IMG/VR virus record: IMGVR_UViG_3300030117_001628
Coordinates: 1-32,475 of that record
DNA length: 32,475 nt
From: a virus
Reading direction: 5' to 3' (one strand)
Shown: positions 17,613 to 25,321 of the stretch, one piece after another
Layout of the letters: each line of letters starts with the position of its first letter
How positions within the stretch are numbered: position 1 is the first letter of the stretch
Made by a program: the position numbers and the translations under genes
The notes under the pieces: generated by a model
The model's input: the letters and a program-made list of their open reading frames with translations, nothing else
The model's database searches: none
Told to the model about the DNA's origin: nothing

Positions 17613-19856
17613 CTAAACTGTGCCTACAACTTCACTGAAGGAAACTCCAGTTCTTGTTGCGACGAATGTTAGTCCTATGAAGTTGATCGACCTTGATGGC
17701 TTCAGGAATATGTCTGCCACAAACTCGTTGCGGTCAATGACATCTGGTGTGTTGTTTGTTTCATCACACACAAGTAAGAAGTCTGTAACTCCTCGCTTAG
17801 ATTGAACATCTCTTAGGAATGGTTCAACAATGTTCACAAAGTTTGATCTTGTGCCTGCATCATTGAGTTCAAAGAGTTGAGCATTTGCTGCTGCTTCAAT
17901 CGCTTTTTCTACTGTGATGAACAATCTCCTTACGTTGATGCGGTCGAAGGCACTGCTGTATGCAAGTGCAGTCTTGTCACCAAAGAGAGTGATTCCTGAT
18001 CCGGGTAGTGAGATAATTGGGTTGATTCTTTGTGAATACAACTGATCTCTGTCTTCCTGACCGGGATTGTATGCTAGTTTCACTGCATGTGCTAGTGAAC
18101 CTCTTGATGTTCCTGCAGGTGAGAACCATGGGAACTGATTTACATCTGTTCTAACACAAAGTCCTGCGACGTCACTTGAGAGTGGCATGTAATTGAACTT
18201 CCTGTTGAATCTATCATAGAAGTATTGATATCCACTATCGAATACAGCGTATGATGATGATGCTAATGGTGCGAAGAACGCTAGAACGTTTGCTAGTTTA
18301 GTTGATGAATTAGTAATGTTTACAACTGAATCACGGTTAGGTGAGATAAACGCTACACAATCCTTTCTTACTTCGCAGATTGATATAAGTTTCTGTGCCT
18401 TTGCTTGCTCTTCCGATATTGACTTAGATGCTCCACCTTGTAGTAGGAATCTGATATCAGAATTTACCTTGTCTGCCAACTTATCATAAGCAGTAAGTGT
18501 GTCACCTAGATCAGCGTCATAGACTCCAATGTGTCCACCGTAGTCTTTACCACCTTTCAGTAAGTAACTCTTATTACCTAATACATTGAACTTGACATCT
18601 TTACCATCTTGTCCCCAAGCACCTGCTCCAGAAGCAATTGGTGTAAGTCCACTACTAAATCCACTTGCTAGTGGTTGTGTGTTATGGAAACTATCTGCTG
18701 CATTGACAGGAGATAAACCGGCAAATATGTACTGAGACTCATTAGCAATGACATTCTTGTAATAAATGTCTTTGTTAGGTGATCCATCAGCGTCTTGTGC
18801 CTTTGATAAATTGCCAAATTTTTCTAATAATGATCCTGTGCTTCCTGTAACAGTGCCATCAGAATCAATAACAACGACGTTAATTGCATCATCGCTTCCG
18901 TTTCTTTCCGAGACATATGAGTTTGTCTGTGGTTTTGGTAATACTGATCTCCACTTGATTGTGATAGCGTCAGTTCCACCATCCCCTCTTCCGGTAGTGA
19001 TGTCCTGCTGATTATACCAATCTGTTAGTACAGGTGTTCCGGTAAGTTTCCATGGGTCAGTTGCTGCTACTGATGAGATACCAATATTAGTATGTTGACC
19101 GTCAGATCCTGTCTTGAACTCAAGTTGTGAGTTTTGCTGATATGTTGTTGCAGTTTCAACTCCTGCAATAACTGTTGATGTAACCTTGACATCAATGAAA
19201 CTGTTACCTACACCGGTTATGATTCCCTTCAGGTAATCATGAACTCCGGGTGATCCGGTTGTTCCAATACCAATGTTTACACCACTCAATGTCTGAGTTA
19301 CAGCATAACCTACTGCGATAGGTTTAGAAGTATAAGTATTTGTTCCTGAACCACATACTGCAGTTAGAATACCAGAAATCCTTTGGTCTGCTGCGTTATC
19401 AATAACACATACCTTTAGGTTTTCTCCCCATGATCCGGGGTTCTTCGCTGCCCAATAGAAATTGGTTGCATTGATTTCGTTGTTGTTATAATCATCGTAG
19501 TTTTCGATGACTAATGTTGTGGTCGATGCTATTCCAACTCCTGCGTTGGCATTAACCATTTGTGATCCTGCAACATTTCCACCACCGGCACGAACAACAT
19601 CTAGTTGCCCTCCATATGATAAGAAATTAGATGCAGCATACCAAGTTTCATAGTGATAGTCAGTTAGACCTACACCGGGACCTCCGAACTTGTCTATAAG
19701 TTCTTTTTCATTGTTGATCCTGCAAACTTCATTTACAGGTCCTTTTTTGAATGGTCCGGCAATACCGGCAGCGACGTTAATGCTTGCATTTACGCCACCT
19801 CTGGTAAGGTCAACTTCTCTTACACTGATACCCGGAGATGATAGTCTGAGTGCCAT
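17613..19856 (-). CDS. gp18: contractile tail sheath protein gp18
   Basis: A 747-residue homologue of T4 gp18 (659 residues), the sheath that contracts on infection. The N-terminal SPGISVREVDLTRGGVNA and the C-terminal block with KRGVTDFLLVCDETNN and FIGLTFVATRTGVSF are the conserved interlocking parts. A variable Gly/Thr-rich insertion at about residues 170 to 400 forms the exposed domains, which accounts for the extra length. A late CTAAATA box and an AGGA ribosome binding site precede it. Tube gp19 follows directly, so both are made from one transcript. Confidence 0.97.
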   Translation of the reverse strand: MALRLSSPGISVREVDLTRGGVNASINVAAGIAGPFKKGPVNEVCRINNEKELIDKFGGPGVGLTDYHYETWYAASNFLSYGGQLDVVRAGGGNVAGSQMVNANAGVGIASTTTLVIENYDDYNNNEINATNFYWAAKNPGSWGENLKVCVIDNAADQRISGILTAVCGSGTNTYTSKPIAVGYAVTQTLSGVNIGIGTTGSPGVHDYLKGIITGVGNSFIDVKVTSTVIAGVETATTYQQNSQLEFKTGSDGQHTNIGISSVAATDPWKLTGTPVLTDWYNQQDITTGRGDGGTDAITIKWRSVLPKPQTNSYVSERNGSDDAINVVVIDSDGTVTGSTGSLLEKFGNLSKAQDADGSPNKDIYYKNVIANESQYIFAGLSPVNAADSFHNTQPLASGFSSGLTPIASGAGAWGQDGKDVKFNVLGNKSYLLKGGKDYGGHIGVYDADLGDTLTAYDKLADKVNSDIRFLLQGGASKSISEEQAKAQKLISICEVRKDCVAFISPNRDSVVNITNSSTKLANVLAFFAPLASSSYAVFDSGYQYFYDRFNRKFNYMPLSSDVAGLCVRTDVNQFPWFSPAGTSRGSLAHAVKLAYNPGQEDRDQLYSQRINPIISLPGSGITLFGDKTALAYSSAFDRINVRRLFITVEKAIEAAANAQLFELNDAGTRSNFVNIVEPFLRDVQSKRGVTDFLLVCDETNNTPDVIDRNEFVADIFLKPSRSINFIGLTFVATRTGVSFSEVVGTV

Positions 19857-19893: not shown

Positions 19894-19900
19894 TATTTAG
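19894..19900 (-). promoter_or_regulatory. late promoter (CTAAATA) before gp18
   Basis: CTAAATA on the minus strand in the 83-base gap before gp18, preceded by a T-run and followed by an AGGA ribosome binding site. It isolates the tail genes from the radical SAM cassette upstream. Confidence 0.75.
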
Positions 19901-19939: not shown

Positions 19940-20170
19940 CTACCAATCAGGATATAATTCAGGTTTATTCTTTCTTCTTTTTGATTTGACTCTTATCTTT
20001 GTACACTCTTTACACTCATAAGAATATGCAGAAGGTGTGGTTCTTTTATTTCTTGTTCTGTAAAATCCACCCAACAAATCCTTAGTGATACCACAGGTTC
20101 TACACTTCCTTTCTGTAAAGACTAGATGATCTAGTGAAAAGGTATCTTCAAATTCCATTCCTACTGTCAT
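19940..20170 (-). CDS. small zinc-ribbon protein, HNH-endonuclease-like N-terminus without HNH core
   Basis: Seventy-six residues (72 if the second ATG at 20158 is used). Cys pairs CRTC at 23 to 26 and CKEC at 53 to 56, about 26 residues apart, with an aromatic YR..R spacer and a very basic tail (RVKSKRRKNK), form a zinc ribbon. The CxxC...FY.....CKxC pattern is common at the N-terminus of phage HNH or endonuclease-VII-like proteins, but no HNH catalytic motif follows. It may be nucleic-acid-binding. It is the last gene of the radical SAM cassette and overlaps the 33-residue peptide gene. Confidence 0.72.
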   Translation of the reverse strand: MTVGMEFEDTFSLDHLVFTERKCRTCGITKDLLGGFYRTRNKRTTPSAYSYECKECTKIRVKSKRRKNKPELYPDW

Positions 20171-20249
20171 AAGTCATAATCCACCAGATTACAATACCTA
20201 CACATACACATAGTATGAATACCATCCAAATGATTGACCATACTATCAT
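20148..20249 (-). CDS. 33-residue membrane micro-protein in the radical SAM cassette
   Basis: A 34-codon frame starts with an ATGA overlap on the radical SAM stop and runs past the start of the zinc-ribbon gene. The peptide is nearly all hydrophobic (MIVWSIIWMVFILCVCVGIV, then IWWIM) with a short polar end TYDSRNGI and two cysteines in the span. No family. Its exact fit in the cassette suggests it is translated with its neighbours. It could be a membrane anchor or a substrate peptide, neither shown. Confidence 0.5.
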   Translation of the reverse strand: MIVWSIIWMVFILCVCVGIVIWWIMTYDSRNGI

Positions 20250-20872
20250 GAGTACTTGCTCCTTTCAAAAGGTCTAGTGATATAGTTCTCTTCCTTTTTA
20301 GGTTTGTATTTTACCATGTCATCTTCCCACCTTACTGACTTAATTATATCAAGACGAACGTTGATAGAATTTGCTAATCGATATGCCTCCTCAATACTAT
20401 CTTCATTGTAATTGAAGACAATATATTTCCATACTACTTGGCATCCTAATTGTTTACCTACTCTCATGATATCAAATAATTTTTCACCGTCTTGATTGAT
20501 TCTATACTTATGACTATCTTTTGGCAATCCATCAATTGCAAATTCCCATATGACATCTTTATTTCTTGTAAGTAAGAAATGTCTTCTAAACCATCCTAAT
20601 GATCTGTGAGTTGATGCTACTGATATAGATACTCTCTTTGATTTTTTTATACACATTTTGAGAAGTGAATACAAATCAGGATGTGTCGTTGGATCAGAAA
20701 AATTACCACAAAATCCTATGTTATCATAATAATCTGTTATTACATCTAAACTTTTCAGAGATATATCTGTACCCAATATCGGTCTTTTATTTTTTGTATA
20801 GTAATGCTGTCTCACACATGCAGGACACTTTAGTGTGCACCTTGTTGTGGTTTCAATGTTAATACGTTTCAC
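20246..20872 (-). CDS. radical SAM protein (208 aa, core domain only)
   Basis: The N-terminus has the radical SAM cluster motif CxxxCxxC: Cys12, Cys16 and Cys19 in CTLKCPAC, which binds a [4Fe-4S] cluster and S-adenosylmethionine to make a 5'-deoxyadenosyl radical. Later segments (IGFCGNFSDPTTHPDL as the GGEP-like strand, FAIDGLPKDSHKYRI) fit the partial TIM barrel, and the DGL...H.Y.R pattern resembles SPASM/MoaA-like enzymes. At 208 residues it has no auxiliary-cluster domain of its own; that domain appears to be the overlapping upstream gene. Substrate unknown. Confidence 0.88.
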   Translation of the reverse strand: MKRINIETTTRCTLKCPACVRQHYYTKNKRPILGTDISLKSLDVITDYYDNIGFCGNFSDPTTHPDLYSLLKMCIKKSKRVSISVASTHRSLGWFRRHFLLTRNKDVIWEFAIDGLPKDSHKYRINQDGEKLFDIMRVGKQLGCQVVWKYIVFNYNEDSIEEAYRLANSINVRLDIIKSVRWEDDMVKYKPKKEENYITRPFERSKYS

Positions 20873-21146
20873 GAGACTTATGATCGTAAGTTTTTGAACA
20901 ATAGTCTTTACATAGTTCTGGGGGATTAGTGTACAGATTCTTGTAAAACTGATTCCATTCTTCAGATTTAGTTATCTCTTCAATATGATTTACTTCTGAA
21001 ACTTTCTTTACCAATAGAGAGTCAATCTCAGGACTAGGTATATCTTTATTTGCCACAAGCATAGCACACCAACAGCAGGGAAAAAGATAATCCTCTGCAG
21101 AAAAAAATGTAGATTGTTTACCATTCAAACATTTTGGTTCAATCAT
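20859..21146 (-). CDS. separate SPASM-like iron-sulfur protein
   Basis: Ninety-five residues with six cysteines arranged C6, C24, C25, C27, C79, C83: a C-x17-CCxC cluster after an LFP strand and a C-terminal CKDYC pair. The segment from KCLNGKQSTFFSAEDYLFPCC to the final cysteines matches the SPASM/twitch auxiliary-cluster layout normally fused to the C-terminus of radical SAM peptide-modifying enzymes. Here it is its own gene, upstream of the core domain and overlapping it by 14 bases. It also overlaps gp17 by four bases (ATGA). Confidence 0.72.
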   Translation of the reverse strand: MIEPKCLNGKQSTFFSAEDYLFPCCWCAMLVANKDIPSPEIDSLLVKKVSEVNHIEEITKSEEWNQFYKNLYTNPPELCKDYCSKTYDHKSRETY

Positions 21147-22801
21147 CTATAATCCCACATGTAGGATCTGTCACCATACTCATCGACTTTCCAGACATCT
21201 CCTGATGAGTCTACAATCTCGTTCTCTTCATCATTCAATCCATCTGTCATGAATCCGAAAGGTGCCATGTCTTGTTCTATTTGATTCTTTTGTTCTTCAT
21301 AGATCCTTTTTCTGACGTCATTGTCAGTCATCTCCTTGAAGTATTCCTGTGCTACCAACCATGCAAAGATTACTAGACACATAGCAAGGTCATCATTACA
21401 ACCCTCTTCTGCTTCAAAAGACTGTCTCTTCTGAACAAACGTAGTCAACTCTGATATTATATCATAATCCAATATTTGTAGTTTGTCTTCTTCAATCAGT
21501 GTTTTCAGGTTACTGCAACCCACCTTCTTCACAGTCACACTCATCTTCACACCCAGTTGAGTCTTCTTACCACTGAAACCTGTACCGACTATTTGACCAG
21601 ATCTACCCCGCATAGCACACATCAATACATTCTCATACTCTAAGTCATACTGTAATATACTTGCTACTTGATCACCAATATCATTTACTTCACATAATAC
21701 AAACGCTTCTTGATATGCTAATGCCACATCCATAATCACAGATGGGAAAAGCATAGGTTTGATTTCATTATCTCTATACTTTGCCACCACTCTATATGGA
21801 AACTCTGTAATGTCAAACACCACAAAGGCACTGTAGTCCTTTGAAATGCCTCTTGCTACGTCCACAGTGATAATATAATCTCTTCCCTTGACAGGTGTTT
21901 CATACACCATTAGATGCCCATTTGTCTGCACTGGGTCATTATATGCCATCGCTTTCAGTTTGGATGGTGCAATCAATGTATCAACAGATCCTAGGAATTC
22001 GCACTCAAACTCAACCTTGAACTGCTGCTCACTTGTGTTAGCAATAGTTTGTGCTTTCCACTTTGCATCTCTACCCGGAACTTCTGACCAGTGAACCTCA
22101 GTGGGAACATACTCATTTCTACCTTTCTCTGCATCATGCCACATACGGTAGAAGTGATTCATACCTTTGGGAGTAGATACAATTATAATTTTTGTTGACT
22201 TACCAGATGATATTGTAGGATATACTGAACTAAAAAAGTCGTCTGCAATATGATTTGGTACGAAAGCAAATTCGTCCAAGAATATGATGTTGAAGGTCAT
22301 ACCTCGAACAGCAGCAGCAGATGTAGATGCTGCCATAATGCTTGATCCATTATCTAGATCCATAGAACCTTTGTTCCATGCAACAATACCTTGCTGCATC
22401 CACTTCGGTAAGTTCTCGTATGCAGTCTGCAATCTACCAAGTAGATCTCTTGCAGTTGCTGCCTTGTTAGCAAGAATACCGATGTTTATATTGTCATTGA
22501 ATATAGCATAGTGCAACAAATAAGACACCGACGTCGTTGACTTACCAGTCTGACGAGGCATCATACAAATATTGAATCTATTCTTATGAAAGTTTCTTAT
22601 TAATTTTTCTTGAAACGGCCACATATCAAAGGGCACAAGACCCTCATCAACGTTTACGATTTTAATATATTCTCTAGCAAAGTAAACTGGATCGTCTTTA
22701 CACTTTAGAAATTCTTTTACGTTCTCTTCTGTGAACTGAATTTCAGTGTTCGCTTTTTTTAGATTCGGATTACCAAGATAGACGTCACTTTGTTGGGGCA
22801 T
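21143..22801 (-). CDS. gp17: large terminase gp17
   Basis: A 552-residue packaging motor (T4 gp17 is 610). ATPase: Walker A MPRQTGKST at about 81 to 89, Walker B IIFLDEF at about 173 to 179, and coupling motif VSTPKG near 210. Nuclease: Asp in TVDVARG at about 314, Glu in CEVND at about 371, and Asp pair in CNDDLAM near 470. It cuts and pumps DNA into the head through gp20. The start directly abuts the previous stop (TAAATG) and its own stop overlaps the SPASM-like gene. Confidence 0.97.
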   Translation of the reverse strand: MPQQSDVYLGNPNLKKANTEIQFTEENVKEFLKCKDDPVYFAREYIKIVNVDEGLVPFDMWPFQEKLIRNFHKNRFNICMMPRQTGKSTTSVSYLLHYAIFNDNINIGILANKAATARDLLGRLQTAYENLPKWMQQGIVAWNKGSMDLDNGSSIMAASTSAAAVRGMTFNIIFLDEFAFVPNHIADDFFSSVYPTISSGKSTKIIIVSTPKGMNHFYRMWHDAEKGRNEYVPTEVHWSEVPGRDAKWKAQTIANTSEQQFKVEFECEFLGSVDTLIAPSKLKAMAYNDPVQTNGHLMVYETPVKGRDYIITVDVARGISKDYSAFVVFDITEFPYRVVAKYRDNEIKPMLFPSVIMDVALAYQEAFVLCEVNDIGDQVASILQYDLEYENVLMCAMRGRSGQIVGTGFSGKKTQLGVKMSVTVKKVGCSNLKTLIEEDKLQILDYDIISELTTFVQKRQSFEAEEGCNDDLAMCLVIFAWLVAQEYFKEMTDNDVRKRIYEEQKNQIEQDMAPFGFMTDGLNDEENEIVDSSGDVWKVDEYGDRSYMWDYR

Positions 22802-25321
22802 TTAGCAGTTCCACTTACGTAGTGATTTAGACAACCTATCATCCCCTGTGTTATTGGATGGTTTCTGTCTCTTTCTCATACCCTTCATTCTAGCACAGAA
22901 AGATGCTCTTCTAGGATTTCCAACTTTTTTGGTAGGTGCTTTGAGGTCAGATCCGGGATTTTCTCTTTCGTAAGACTTTCTTCCCTTTTCATTGAGTCCA
23001 CCTTCTTTATTCTTTCCTGACTTTTTTGTCCATGCTGCTCCCTCAACTGCTACCTCTTCATTCTTAGGACGACAATCATTCACAAGTTTGCCATTTTTCA
23101 TCTTCATACCCACTTTTTTGTGAGTCTTCCAACATTCTTGAGTGAACTGAGAATATGACTTTGACTCTTTATTCATAGAGATCAATTCATTTCTTGCTTC
23201 TCTTTTACTTTGTCTGCGGTAACGACCTACCTCTGTGACCTTACCATCTTTACCGTAATGAGTTCCTCTTTTTCTGTTGACATGATCTGTCATTGCAGTG
23301 TCAACTTCCTTTGTACTTCTAGCATACTGAGAAGACTTATCTTTTAGATTTACTTTCTCTTCAATCTTTTTTTCTTTCTTTTTCTTCTCCCCAAACTTTG
23401 CCATAGGACCTTTGGGTTTACCATCTCCTTTATATAAACCGTAAGATGTTCCTTCTTTCTTCATCTTCTCCTTTGCTGCCTTGAGTCTAGCAAGAAACTC
23501 CTTTCCACCCTTCTCTTTCTTGATCTCATCATCACTCATCTTCTTACCAGACTTGTTCTTATCAGCATACATTTTACTCTGCATGTCATTAGAACTTGTC
23601 AATCTACTATCTTCTAACTGAGTTTCCTCCTTACTAACACCCGCCTTTCTTCTTGCAGGTTCAGCAATTGATTTTATAATCATCTTTGCAATCGCTCTTT
23701 TTCCATATGGATTACTCTTTCGTCCAAGAGGAACCTTCTTATCCTTTTTCATTGTGAGTTCATTAATCATATCTTTGTAACTGATTAACTCTTCTTTCTT
23801 ACTCTTACCATAATTAGCAGCACCCTTCTTACGACACTGTACTAATCTACCTGATGCATATGCAGATGGCCATACACTTGCACTTGCCTTTACCTTATGA
23901 TAACAAGCATCTTTCTTACCACTACCCTTACCTTTCTTATCTTTTGCTTCATACTGTACCTCATCATTTAATTTATTTCCAACCATTGTTCCTCTTTTTA
24001 TTGGTTCAAACGGTTTTCTTTTAGGATTATTTTTTGCATGTTCAGCATCTGCTTTCTTTCTTGCAGGTGTATTCAGATACCCTCCAGCTTTTTTATATCT
24101 CTGTACATAACTTTTGTCTTTCATGAAGTTTTCTTTCATTTTCTTTTTAGGTTTGTCAGTTGAAACGTAAGTTGGTTTTGCAGCACCAGATTTGGACTGC
24201 TGATTAGGGTCTGCTGCCTTTTTTCTTCTTGATGCAGATTCTCTTTCTGCCTTAGACATACTTGCTCTCTTAGAAGATGACACACACTTAGGTGTACCTT
24301 CTCCGGGTTCGTCACTAGCACAGGTACCACCTGTCTTGACATTTACCCAACCGGGTTTTCCATCTTTAGATTTAGATCCCTTAAACCATTTATGTAATGA
24401 CCCCTCTGTCTGCACTTCAGGATTCACCGCTACTTTTTTAGGGTAGTTTAAAAGTTGCTTCAGTTTACGATAATCTCTTGAATTAGTAGGATTTAAGTTT
24501 GGATATTTTTTTAGAAATCCATCTGGAAATGTTCTTTCCTCATCATATGTCTTGACTCCATCCTTTACATATCCTTTTCCTTTAGTATCATAAAATTTTA
24601 TCCCTTTTTTTATTCTTTCTTTTTTATTTGCTGCCCACTGTTTATCTTTTTCTTTCTGATCTTCCCTTCTCTTTTTCTTTTTATCTCTTGCTTCCTGTGC
24701 TTTTGCTGCGAATGTTCTATAGTCAGTTAGTTCATCCATAGTTGACACTTTAATGTCAACCACAGGTATTTCAGTATGTGCACGAAGAATATTATAGGGA
24801 ACACCCTTCAGTGGTTTATCTTTTTTACCACCGGGAATGCTTTTCAAACCTTTTGGTAATCCAGTACTAGAATCTCTATCCTGTCCAGAATAGTATCCTA
24901 CTTCATCGAGTTTTCCTAAATTTGATTCCATTGCTTGTTTTCGTATCGTAGCATAATAAACTTTTTCACCCTCTTCCTTACCATACTGTTTCTTCATGTT
25001 CTTTTTCATGTCAGAGTCATCATATTTTTTCTTCAGCATTGTGTCCTTTCTCTTCTGAGATGAGGTCATTGTCGCTTCAGACACGCCACCACTACCACCA
25101 TTACCACCAGAGTTACCGTTACCATTTCCACTACCATTCCGACCACTCCCATTTGACTTAGAGTGTCCGTTACCGTTCCCATTACCATTCTTTTTAGAAT
25201 CATCCTCTTGTGGTTCTTGTCGCAAGTAACCGCGAGCACCAATCATGTACCCTTTTGGTATTTTTTTACACTTCTTATCAGTGTAGCAATAATATTGTCC
25301 TTTCGGGCAAGATTCGGTCAT
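22802..25321 (-). CDS. large Lys-rich multi-module phage protein (839 aa), probable virion component
   Basis: An 839-residue, very basic, low-hydrophobicity protein. The N-terminus CPKGQYYCYTDKKCKKIPKGY is followed by an Asn/Gly/Ser linker at about 45 to 85. It then has several basic modules: one with PGWVNVKTGGTCASDEPG and KYVSSS-like Cys/Lys elements at about 320 to 400 (DUF5872-like), a CYHKVKASASVWPSAYASG module near 480, and a C-terminal SFCARMKGMRKRQ ... LRKWNC module. I recognise all three as recurrent phage modules, but their function is unknown. It lies between gp16 and gp17 under its own late promoter. A DNA-binding internal head or packaging-associated protein is an inference from charge and position. 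Confidence 0.85.
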   Translation of the reverse strand: MTESCPKGQYYCYTDKKCKKIPKGYMIGARGYLRQEPQEDDSKKNGNGNGNGHSKSNGSGRNGSGNGNGNSGGNGGSGGVSEATMTSSQKRKDTMLKKKYDDSDMKKNMKKQYGKEEGEKVYYATIRKQAMESNLGKLDEVGYYSGQDRDSSTGLPKGLKSIPGGKKDKPLKGVPYNILRAHTEIPVVDIKVSTMDELTDYRTFAAKAQEARDKKKKRREDQKEKDKQWAANKKERIKKGIKFYDTKGKGYVKDGVKTYDEERTFPDGFLKKYPNLNPTNSRDYRKLKQLLNYPKKVAVNPEVQTEGSLHKWFKGSKSKDGKPGWVNVKTGGTCASDEPGEGTPKCVSSSKRASMSKAERESASRRKKAADPNQQSKSGAAKPTYVSTDKPKKKMKENFMKDKSYVQRYKKAGGYLNTPARKKADAEHAKNNPKRKPFEPIKRGTMVGNKLNDEVQYEAKDKKGKGSGKKDACYHKVKASASVWPSAYASGRLVQCRKKGAANYGKSKKEELISYKDMINELTMKKDKKVPLGRKSNPYGKRAIAKMIIKSIAEPARRKAGVSKEETQLEDSRLTSSNDMQSKMYADKNKSGKKMSDDEIKKEKGGKEFLARLKAAKEKMKKEGTSYGLYKGDGKPKGPMAKFGEKKKKEKKIEEKVNLKDKSSQYARSTKEVDTAMTDHVNRKRGTHYGKDGKVTEVGRYRRQSKREARNELISMNKESKSYSQFTQECWKTHKKVGMKMKNGKLVNDCRPKNEEVAVEGAAWTKKSGKNKEGGLNEKGRKSYERENPGSDLKAPTKKVGNPRRASFCARMKGMRKRQKPSNNTGDDRLSKSLRKWNC

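Follow-up and report, generated by a model that had tools for sequence, protein, structure and literature searches.

The window, by which we mean the whole 32,475-nucleotide stretch of DNA that was analysed, derives from a marine T4-like phage. Between its large terminase and tail sheath genes lie four overlapping open reading frames, all on the minus strand as first described, and the cysteine positions given for them in an earlier note were confirmed. The features of the locus are as follows:

21143-22801, minus strand: large terminase gp17 (terL), upstream neighbour (family search)
20859-21146, minus strand: putative stand-alone Twitch-type auxiliary Fe-S domain protein, 95 aa (open reading frame; C6, C24-C25-x-C27, C79-xxx-C83)
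20859-20872, minus strand: overlap of the Twitch and core genes, 14 nt (open reading frame coordinates)
20246-20872, minus strand: predicted radical SAM core protein, 208 aa, GTG start (open reading frame; C12xxxC16xxC19, residues 12-19)
20250-21146, minus strand: inserted unit of 897 bp, beginning at the Twitch start codon (ATG) and finishing where the radical SAM gene ends (empty site in locus L249)
20148-20249, minus strand: gene for a hydrophobic 33-aa membrane-helix peptide, outside the unit (phrog_25423, E 1.2e-9; present at the empty site L249)
19940-20170, minus strand: 76-aa zinc-ribbon gene of phrog_4723 ('endonuclease VII' family), outside the unit (E 4e-32)
17613-19856, minus strand: tail sheath gp18, downstream neighbour (open reading frame and locus comparison)

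The overlaps are 4 nt between terL and the 95-aa gene, 14 nt between the 95-aa and 208-aa genes, 4 nt between the 208-aa and 33-aa genes, and 23 nt between the 33-aa and 76-aa genes, with ATGA stop/start overlaps bordering the 897-bp unit at both ends. Both the 95-aa and the 208-aa gene are under strong purifying selection (dN/dS of 0.075 and 0.074, respectively, against the related locus L009). As these values are low and the layout is kept in 46 distinct related cassettes, the two reading frames are not products of chance. A promoter-like CTAAATA is present at 19894-19900 on the minus strand, just upstream of gp18, the gene from which a late promoter of its own had been said to isolate the cassette. 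This claim is weak, because the number of CTAAATA words (3 found, 7 expected) is not above chance. Two further genes were noted elsewhere in the window: one at 22802-25321, between the terminase small and large subunit genes, for an 839-aa protein rich in lysine and glycine that carries DUF6321 at its C-terminus, and one at 1688-2146, adjoining the sliding clamp gene, for a 152-aa phrog_7878 protein (heptose 7-phosphate kinase/adenylyltransferase-like).

The 208-aa protein is a predicted radical SAM core, in agreement with the earlier note. Pfam PF04055 (Radical_SAM) matched it with E 5.1e-6 and 27.2 bits, just under the cut-off of 29.5, and the cluster cysteines C12, C16 and C19, which form the CxxxCxxC of the radical SAM superfamily, were invariant in 74 distinct sequences. 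Two more specific assignments were rejected. Sequence matches between the core and viperin, an antiviral enzyme, were weak (E 0.002), and SPASM/Twitch enzymes suited the model of a fused relative better; the tungsten-cofactor maturase family TIGR04317 was matched at E 3e-10, but the score of 39.7 bits falls short of its cut-off of 380.

A search of about 50,000 phage records yielded a single phage that matched both proteins, Pelagibacter phage Mosig EXVC030M. Mosig carries them as separate genes in the canonical order (core, then Twitch), and its Twitch protein was 38% identical to the 95-aa protein of the window. After searches of IMG/VR the set comprised 227 loci. A survey of fused and split forms, which the earlier note had proposed, recovered three architectures in this set: by distinct cores, 33 were fused core-Twitch proteins, 94 were split with the core first, and 59 were split with the Twitch first, as in the window. 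The fused relatives are mostly 270-320 aa long and end in the same domain as the window Twitch. The pattern C..PCC..CxxxC is common to the 95-aa protein and the C-terminal domain of these relatives, as can be seen by setting fused L109 ('...FEPKCLKDFPIGHSTSGHLLPCCWSDYYKNEIPELVQ...SKEWKSFYKKLETNPPEYCKKNC') beside the window Twitch ('IEPKCLNGKQSTFFSAEDYLFPCCWCAMLV...SEEWNQFYKNLYTNPPELCKDYC'). The model of this fused relative (L109:318-1160; pLDDT 87.6, pTM 0.86) had a partial TIM-barrel fold and aligned over its full length with SuiB, BlsE, MoaA, SkfB, anSME, PqqE, and BtrN (Z 15-19).

The 95-residue protein had been described as a SPASM domain encoded separately upstream of the core. The separate, upstream position and the auxiliary Fe-S role, in partnership with the radical SAM core, largely hold; the domain appears to be of the one-cluster Twitch type with four cysteines, and not a seven-cysteine SPASM. 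The full SPASM motif, CX9-15GX4C..CX2CX5CX3C..C, has seven cysteines and holds two clusters (PMC6231123), and the second-cluster cysteines are absent from the 95-aa protein, for which a full SPASM domain was therefore rejected. In an alignment of 94 members of its family sharing <80% identity, C6, P23, C24, C79, and C83 were invariant, and the cysteine spacing was mostly C-X16-18-C and always C-X3-C (C-X17-C and C-X3-C in the window). The auxiliary ligands of BtrN are also spaced C-X17-C. The auxiliary cluster of that enzyme is ligated by four cysteines (PMC9012708).

In an AF2 model of the 95-aa protein, built from the family alignment (pLDDT 86, pTM 0.72), the two strands of a hairpin (14-15 and 21-22) are followed by one helix past the CC pair and by a long helix at 62-73, with C79 and C83 after it. 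In the Twitch topology, as described for SkfB, cysteines flank a beta-hairpin on both sides and also follow helix 2 (PMC6231123); the order of elements and the one-cluster cysteine set of the 95-aa protein agree with this in both the sequence alignment and the model. In a check against SPASM/Twitch models, likewise proposed earlier, Pfam SPASM remained under its cut-off (E 0.067), and structural likeness to the Twitch domains of BtrN and SpeY was weak (Z 2.1-2.6). In a second-look alignment these two were the only PDB chains with Z>=2, both at their Twitch residues and with low Z (BtrN, 2.6 with rmsd 4.2 over 77 aligned residues, and 2.1; SpeY, 2.5 with rmsd 4.0 over 85). With this small model Foldseek alone gave only chance matches and no significant E, and a Twitch profile run against PDB sequences reached BtrN and YydG at E 2-3 only, which we did not count as evidence. 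Since neither window protein reaches its Pfam cut-off, the identification of both rests on their relatives.

Co-occurrence was counted only in loci found with the core as query, which held 118 distinct cores. These comprised 51 split core-Twitch pairs, 46 split Twitch-core pairs, 13 fused proteins, and 8 cores without a Twitch HMM match, 4 of which reach a contig end while the other 4 have a divergent Twitch visible by eye. Among the 118, no core demonstrably without a Twitch partner was found; related phages with the radical SAM gene but lacking the cysteine protein had been named earlier as evidence that would speak against the pairing. Pairwise distances of core and Twitch were correlated in reversed-order pairs (r 0.72), canonical-order pairs (0.66), and fused proteins (0.84), with 0 of 500 permutations as high. 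Over all split pairs the correlation was 0.55, and because this is lower than the 0.84 of fused proteins, partners in split pairs may sometimes have been exchanged.

Locus L249, whose terminase is 98% identical to that of the window, provides an exact empty site. Window positions 20250-21146 are absent from it as one block, and the flanks are 89-90% identical to the window on both sides. The missing 897 bp correspond exactly to the Twitch and core genes, which therefore move as one unit, bearing out the earlier view that the 95-residue and 208-residue genes belong together. An ATGA stop/start overlap links the adjacent genes in both the window phage and L249, so gain or loss of the unit left translational coupling intact. 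The pair is an accessory cassette. In L021, a different cassette (core 52% identical) occupies the following gene start, that of the zinc ribbon.

The same comparison removes the other two genes from the cassette, which had been drawn as four genes and is limited by the empty site to the first two (20250-21146). In L249 the 33-aa gene and the zinc ribbon are both kept although the pair is missing; conversely, the pair occurs in L009 without a 33-aa gene, and L010 carries the pair but lacks both of these genes. The zinc ribbon, previously counted in the cassette, was accordingly rejected as a member. Among the 80 loci with the nearest terminases, the junction held the ribbon without the pair in 55, the ribbon with the 33-aa gene in 1, none of these genes in 15, and a core in 2. 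In cyanophage Sf-CH5 the zinc-ribbon gene is the sole gene between terL and gp18, and in many cyanophages it is an ordinary gene of this junction. The 33-residue micro-protein, whose conservation with the pair had been raised as a question and which had been suggested as a target, is independent of the pair in these three loci and was ruled out as a likely substrate. RiPP maturases have a dedicated precursor peptide next to the enzyme; in the cassette, no candidate for one was found besides this independent gene.

The order of the two genes was followed on trees of the cores. In a tree of 198 cores, the window fell in a clade of 48 (SH-aLRT 96), consisting of 46 reversed-order loci and 2 cut at a contig start. 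Nearly all members of this clade have neighbours that place them between terL and the sheath gene, and none was placed elsewhere. With 73 representatives the clade had support of 98/84, the reversed order formed a single group in 0 of 200 bootstrap trees, and the architectures required at least 10 changes. In more distant T4-like phages, the fused and canonical split forms are located across the terminase from this position, between gp15 and gp17, often as tandem arrays. It is plausible but unproven that the reversed order arose when a core-Twitch-core-Twitch array lost its first core and last Twitch. The overlap of the Twitch and core frames might instead suggest a decaying, fragmented fused gene or an assembly frameshift. 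However, a frameshift in a canonical fusion cannot yield the reversed order, 46 distinct copies are conserved with varying relative frames, dN/dS is 0.07 in both genes, and an isolate phage, Mosig, likewise has a split pair, which together make this explanation extremely improbable. Read-through into one polypeptide is also unlikely, since the relative frame of the two genes varies among relatives. Translated as a +1 read-through fusion, the pair had its Twitch rows misaligned to the core, and only a few loci had a usable shift word.

We conclude, with a probability of about 0.78, that the two genes of the cassette specify the two polypeptides of a single radical SAM enzyme, with an auxiliary [4Fe-4S] cluster supplied in trans. 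Homology to fused forms, conservation of the cysteines, near-universal co-occurrence, purifying selection, and insertion as a unit all support this reading. Genes for A-type Fe-S carriers were found near related pairs in 11 loci, which supports an Fe-S role; in L103, such an IscA-like gene (L103:6157-6471) is close to the pair, downstream of the core and Twitch genes and between those for the terminase small and large subunits. The 95-aa and 208-aa proteins would form a heteromer. In the 208-aa core, SAM bound on the CxxxCxxC [4Fe-4S] cluster would give rise to a 5'-deoxyadenosyl radical. The 95-aa Twitch, with a single auxiliary [4Fe-4S] cluster ligated by C6, C24, C79, and C83, would dock near the substrate, in the place taken by the fused Twitch in relatives. 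On the model of BtrN, an electron would then pass from the substrate radical to the auxiliary cluster, giving a net two-electron oxidation. We hold with fair confidence that the chemistry would combine radical C-H abstraction with one-electron transfer to the auxiliary cluster; in MoaA, a Twitch cluster can serve another role.

The two proteins might also act separately, the core as a minimal radical SAM enzyme of the QueE or activase kind and the Twitch as an Fe-S or zinc protein in its own right, such as an electron carrier for several enzymes. Stand-alone radical SAM cores are known elsewhere in the superfamily, and split pairs correlate less tightly than fused ones. We nevertheless consider separate action improbable, given the near-universal adjacency in two gene orders, the presence of both domains in fused orthologues, and the insertion of both genes as one exact unit. 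A variant of the two-polypeptide enzyme, which we consider doubtful, is that the Twitch would be an exchangeable subunit acting in trans: it would dock reversibly, accept the electron of the substrate radical and carry it off, and where a phage has several pairs, a single Twitch could work with two or more cores. If true, this would be a kind of auxiliary-cluster subunit of radical SAM enzymes that is not described in the searchable literature.

As for the substrate of the two-polypeptide enzyme, one tentative reading is an aminosugar or aminocyclitol-type dehydrogenase, similar to BtrN or SpeY and working with a DegT aminotransferase, with the window clade still acting on a sugar. The Twitch has its structural matches in BtrN and SpeY, and outside the terminase region DegT genes occur in 26 of 64 canonical-order and 5 of 13 reversed-order loci, which also hold carbamoyltransferase, epimerase, and other radical SAM genes; the Mosig operon, for instance, runs radical SAM, Twitch, 246-aa protein, DegT, radical SAM. 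This context resembles the setting of BtrN, in which an alcohol is first oxidised and then transaminated. On the other hand, none of the 42 loci with the arrangement of the window has a DegT gene, nor does the window itself, and among the matches of the fused model RiPP maturases stand no lower than sugar enzymes.

Because the pair of the window clade stands by itself in a region of late virion genes, a virion molecule or a late host molecule may be the target instead. It is possible, if far from assured, that the enzyme post-translationally modifies a late or virion protein whose gene lies nearby (sheath, tube, portal, or packaging). The window clade lies between terL and the sheath gene and distant fused and split relatives between gp15 and terL, and the structures that best match the fused relative include SuiB, SkfB, and anSME. 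However, no recognition domain or precursor peptide was found, and most near relatives by terminase are without the pair yet have the same structural genes, so that the position is perhaps only a tolerant insertion site.

The operon seen in Mosig (L002:11105-15692) is conserved, for example in L190:5090-10815, L194, L150, L100, and L136. Operons of this type comprise genes for an unknown protein, a split core, a Twitch, a weakly GDSL-like protein of about 250 aa, a DegT, and a second radical SAM protein, sometimes with a carbamoyltransferase. They appear to encode an aminosugar or aminocyclitol-type pathway, so far undescribed, of marine myophages.

Like BtrN and SpeY, which are Twitch-type radical SAM dehydrogenases, the window pair combines a radical SAM core with one auxiliary cluster domain. 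Those enzymes are single polypeptides with a C-terminal Twitch, whereas the window has two polypeptides in the reverse order, and the C-terminal auxiliary fusion typical of SPASM/Twitch enzymes is replaced by a separate upstream gene. The full-length fold of the fused relative also aligns with SkfB, SuiB, anSME, and PqqE (Z 16-19); these enzymes are fused as well, several with a peptide-binding RRE, whereas the window cassette has no precursor peptide tied to it. The reversed order has a fused precedent in NF033640 (N_Twi_rSAM, NCBIfam), in which the Twitch precedes the core. The C-terminal Twitch of fused L131 matched the N-terminal Twitch of that family with E 3e-7, but NF033640 is a single fused protein in contrast to the two genes of the window, and its model matched neither window protein.

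Radical SAM genes have been reported in general for pelagimyophages and other marine T4-like phages (PMC7029224, PMC5332604), the phage group to which the window belongs and in which Mosig EXVC030M has its canonical-order split pair. In these two papers we found neither a separate Twitch subunit nor the reversed order described, and no report of a split or stand-alone SPASM or Twitch subunit was found in the open-licence literature; all SPASM/Twitch enzymes discussed in the open-licence papers examined have core and auxiliary cluster in one fused protein. A split, reversed Twitch radical SAM enzyme therefore appears to be undescribed in the searchable literature, whereas radical SAM genes in marine T4-like phages and the fused N-terminal-Twitch family were already known. 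Because the cluster is fused to the core in described enzymes, its role is difficult to tell apart from an effect on folding. With a naturally detached Twitch, one could supply, omit, or mutate the cluster in trans and so test auxiliary-cluster function directly. Its signature could also help to recognise many viral 'hypothetical proteins' as Fe-S subunits. Marine phages have repeatedly split, fused, and reversed the core and Twitch domains.

The family is rare in cellular genomes, with 13 loci in about 85,000 species, most of them on short marine contigs. In two Hyphomicrobiales MAGs, a canonical-order pair lies amid ordinary chromosomal genes such as guaA. These split pairs (L230:7905-8902 and L231:7917-8902) have cores about 89% identical but differ in context, one being next to an SDR gene and the other between guaA and an SbmA/BacA gene. 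Unusual arrangements were also observed: one viral contig carries four radical SAM cores alternating with four Twitch genes (L151:3523-8441), and at L228:7788-8840, downstream of a split core and an N_Twi_rSAM protein, a Twitch is fused N-terminally to a domain of about 250 aa that is glycosyltransferase-like by eye.
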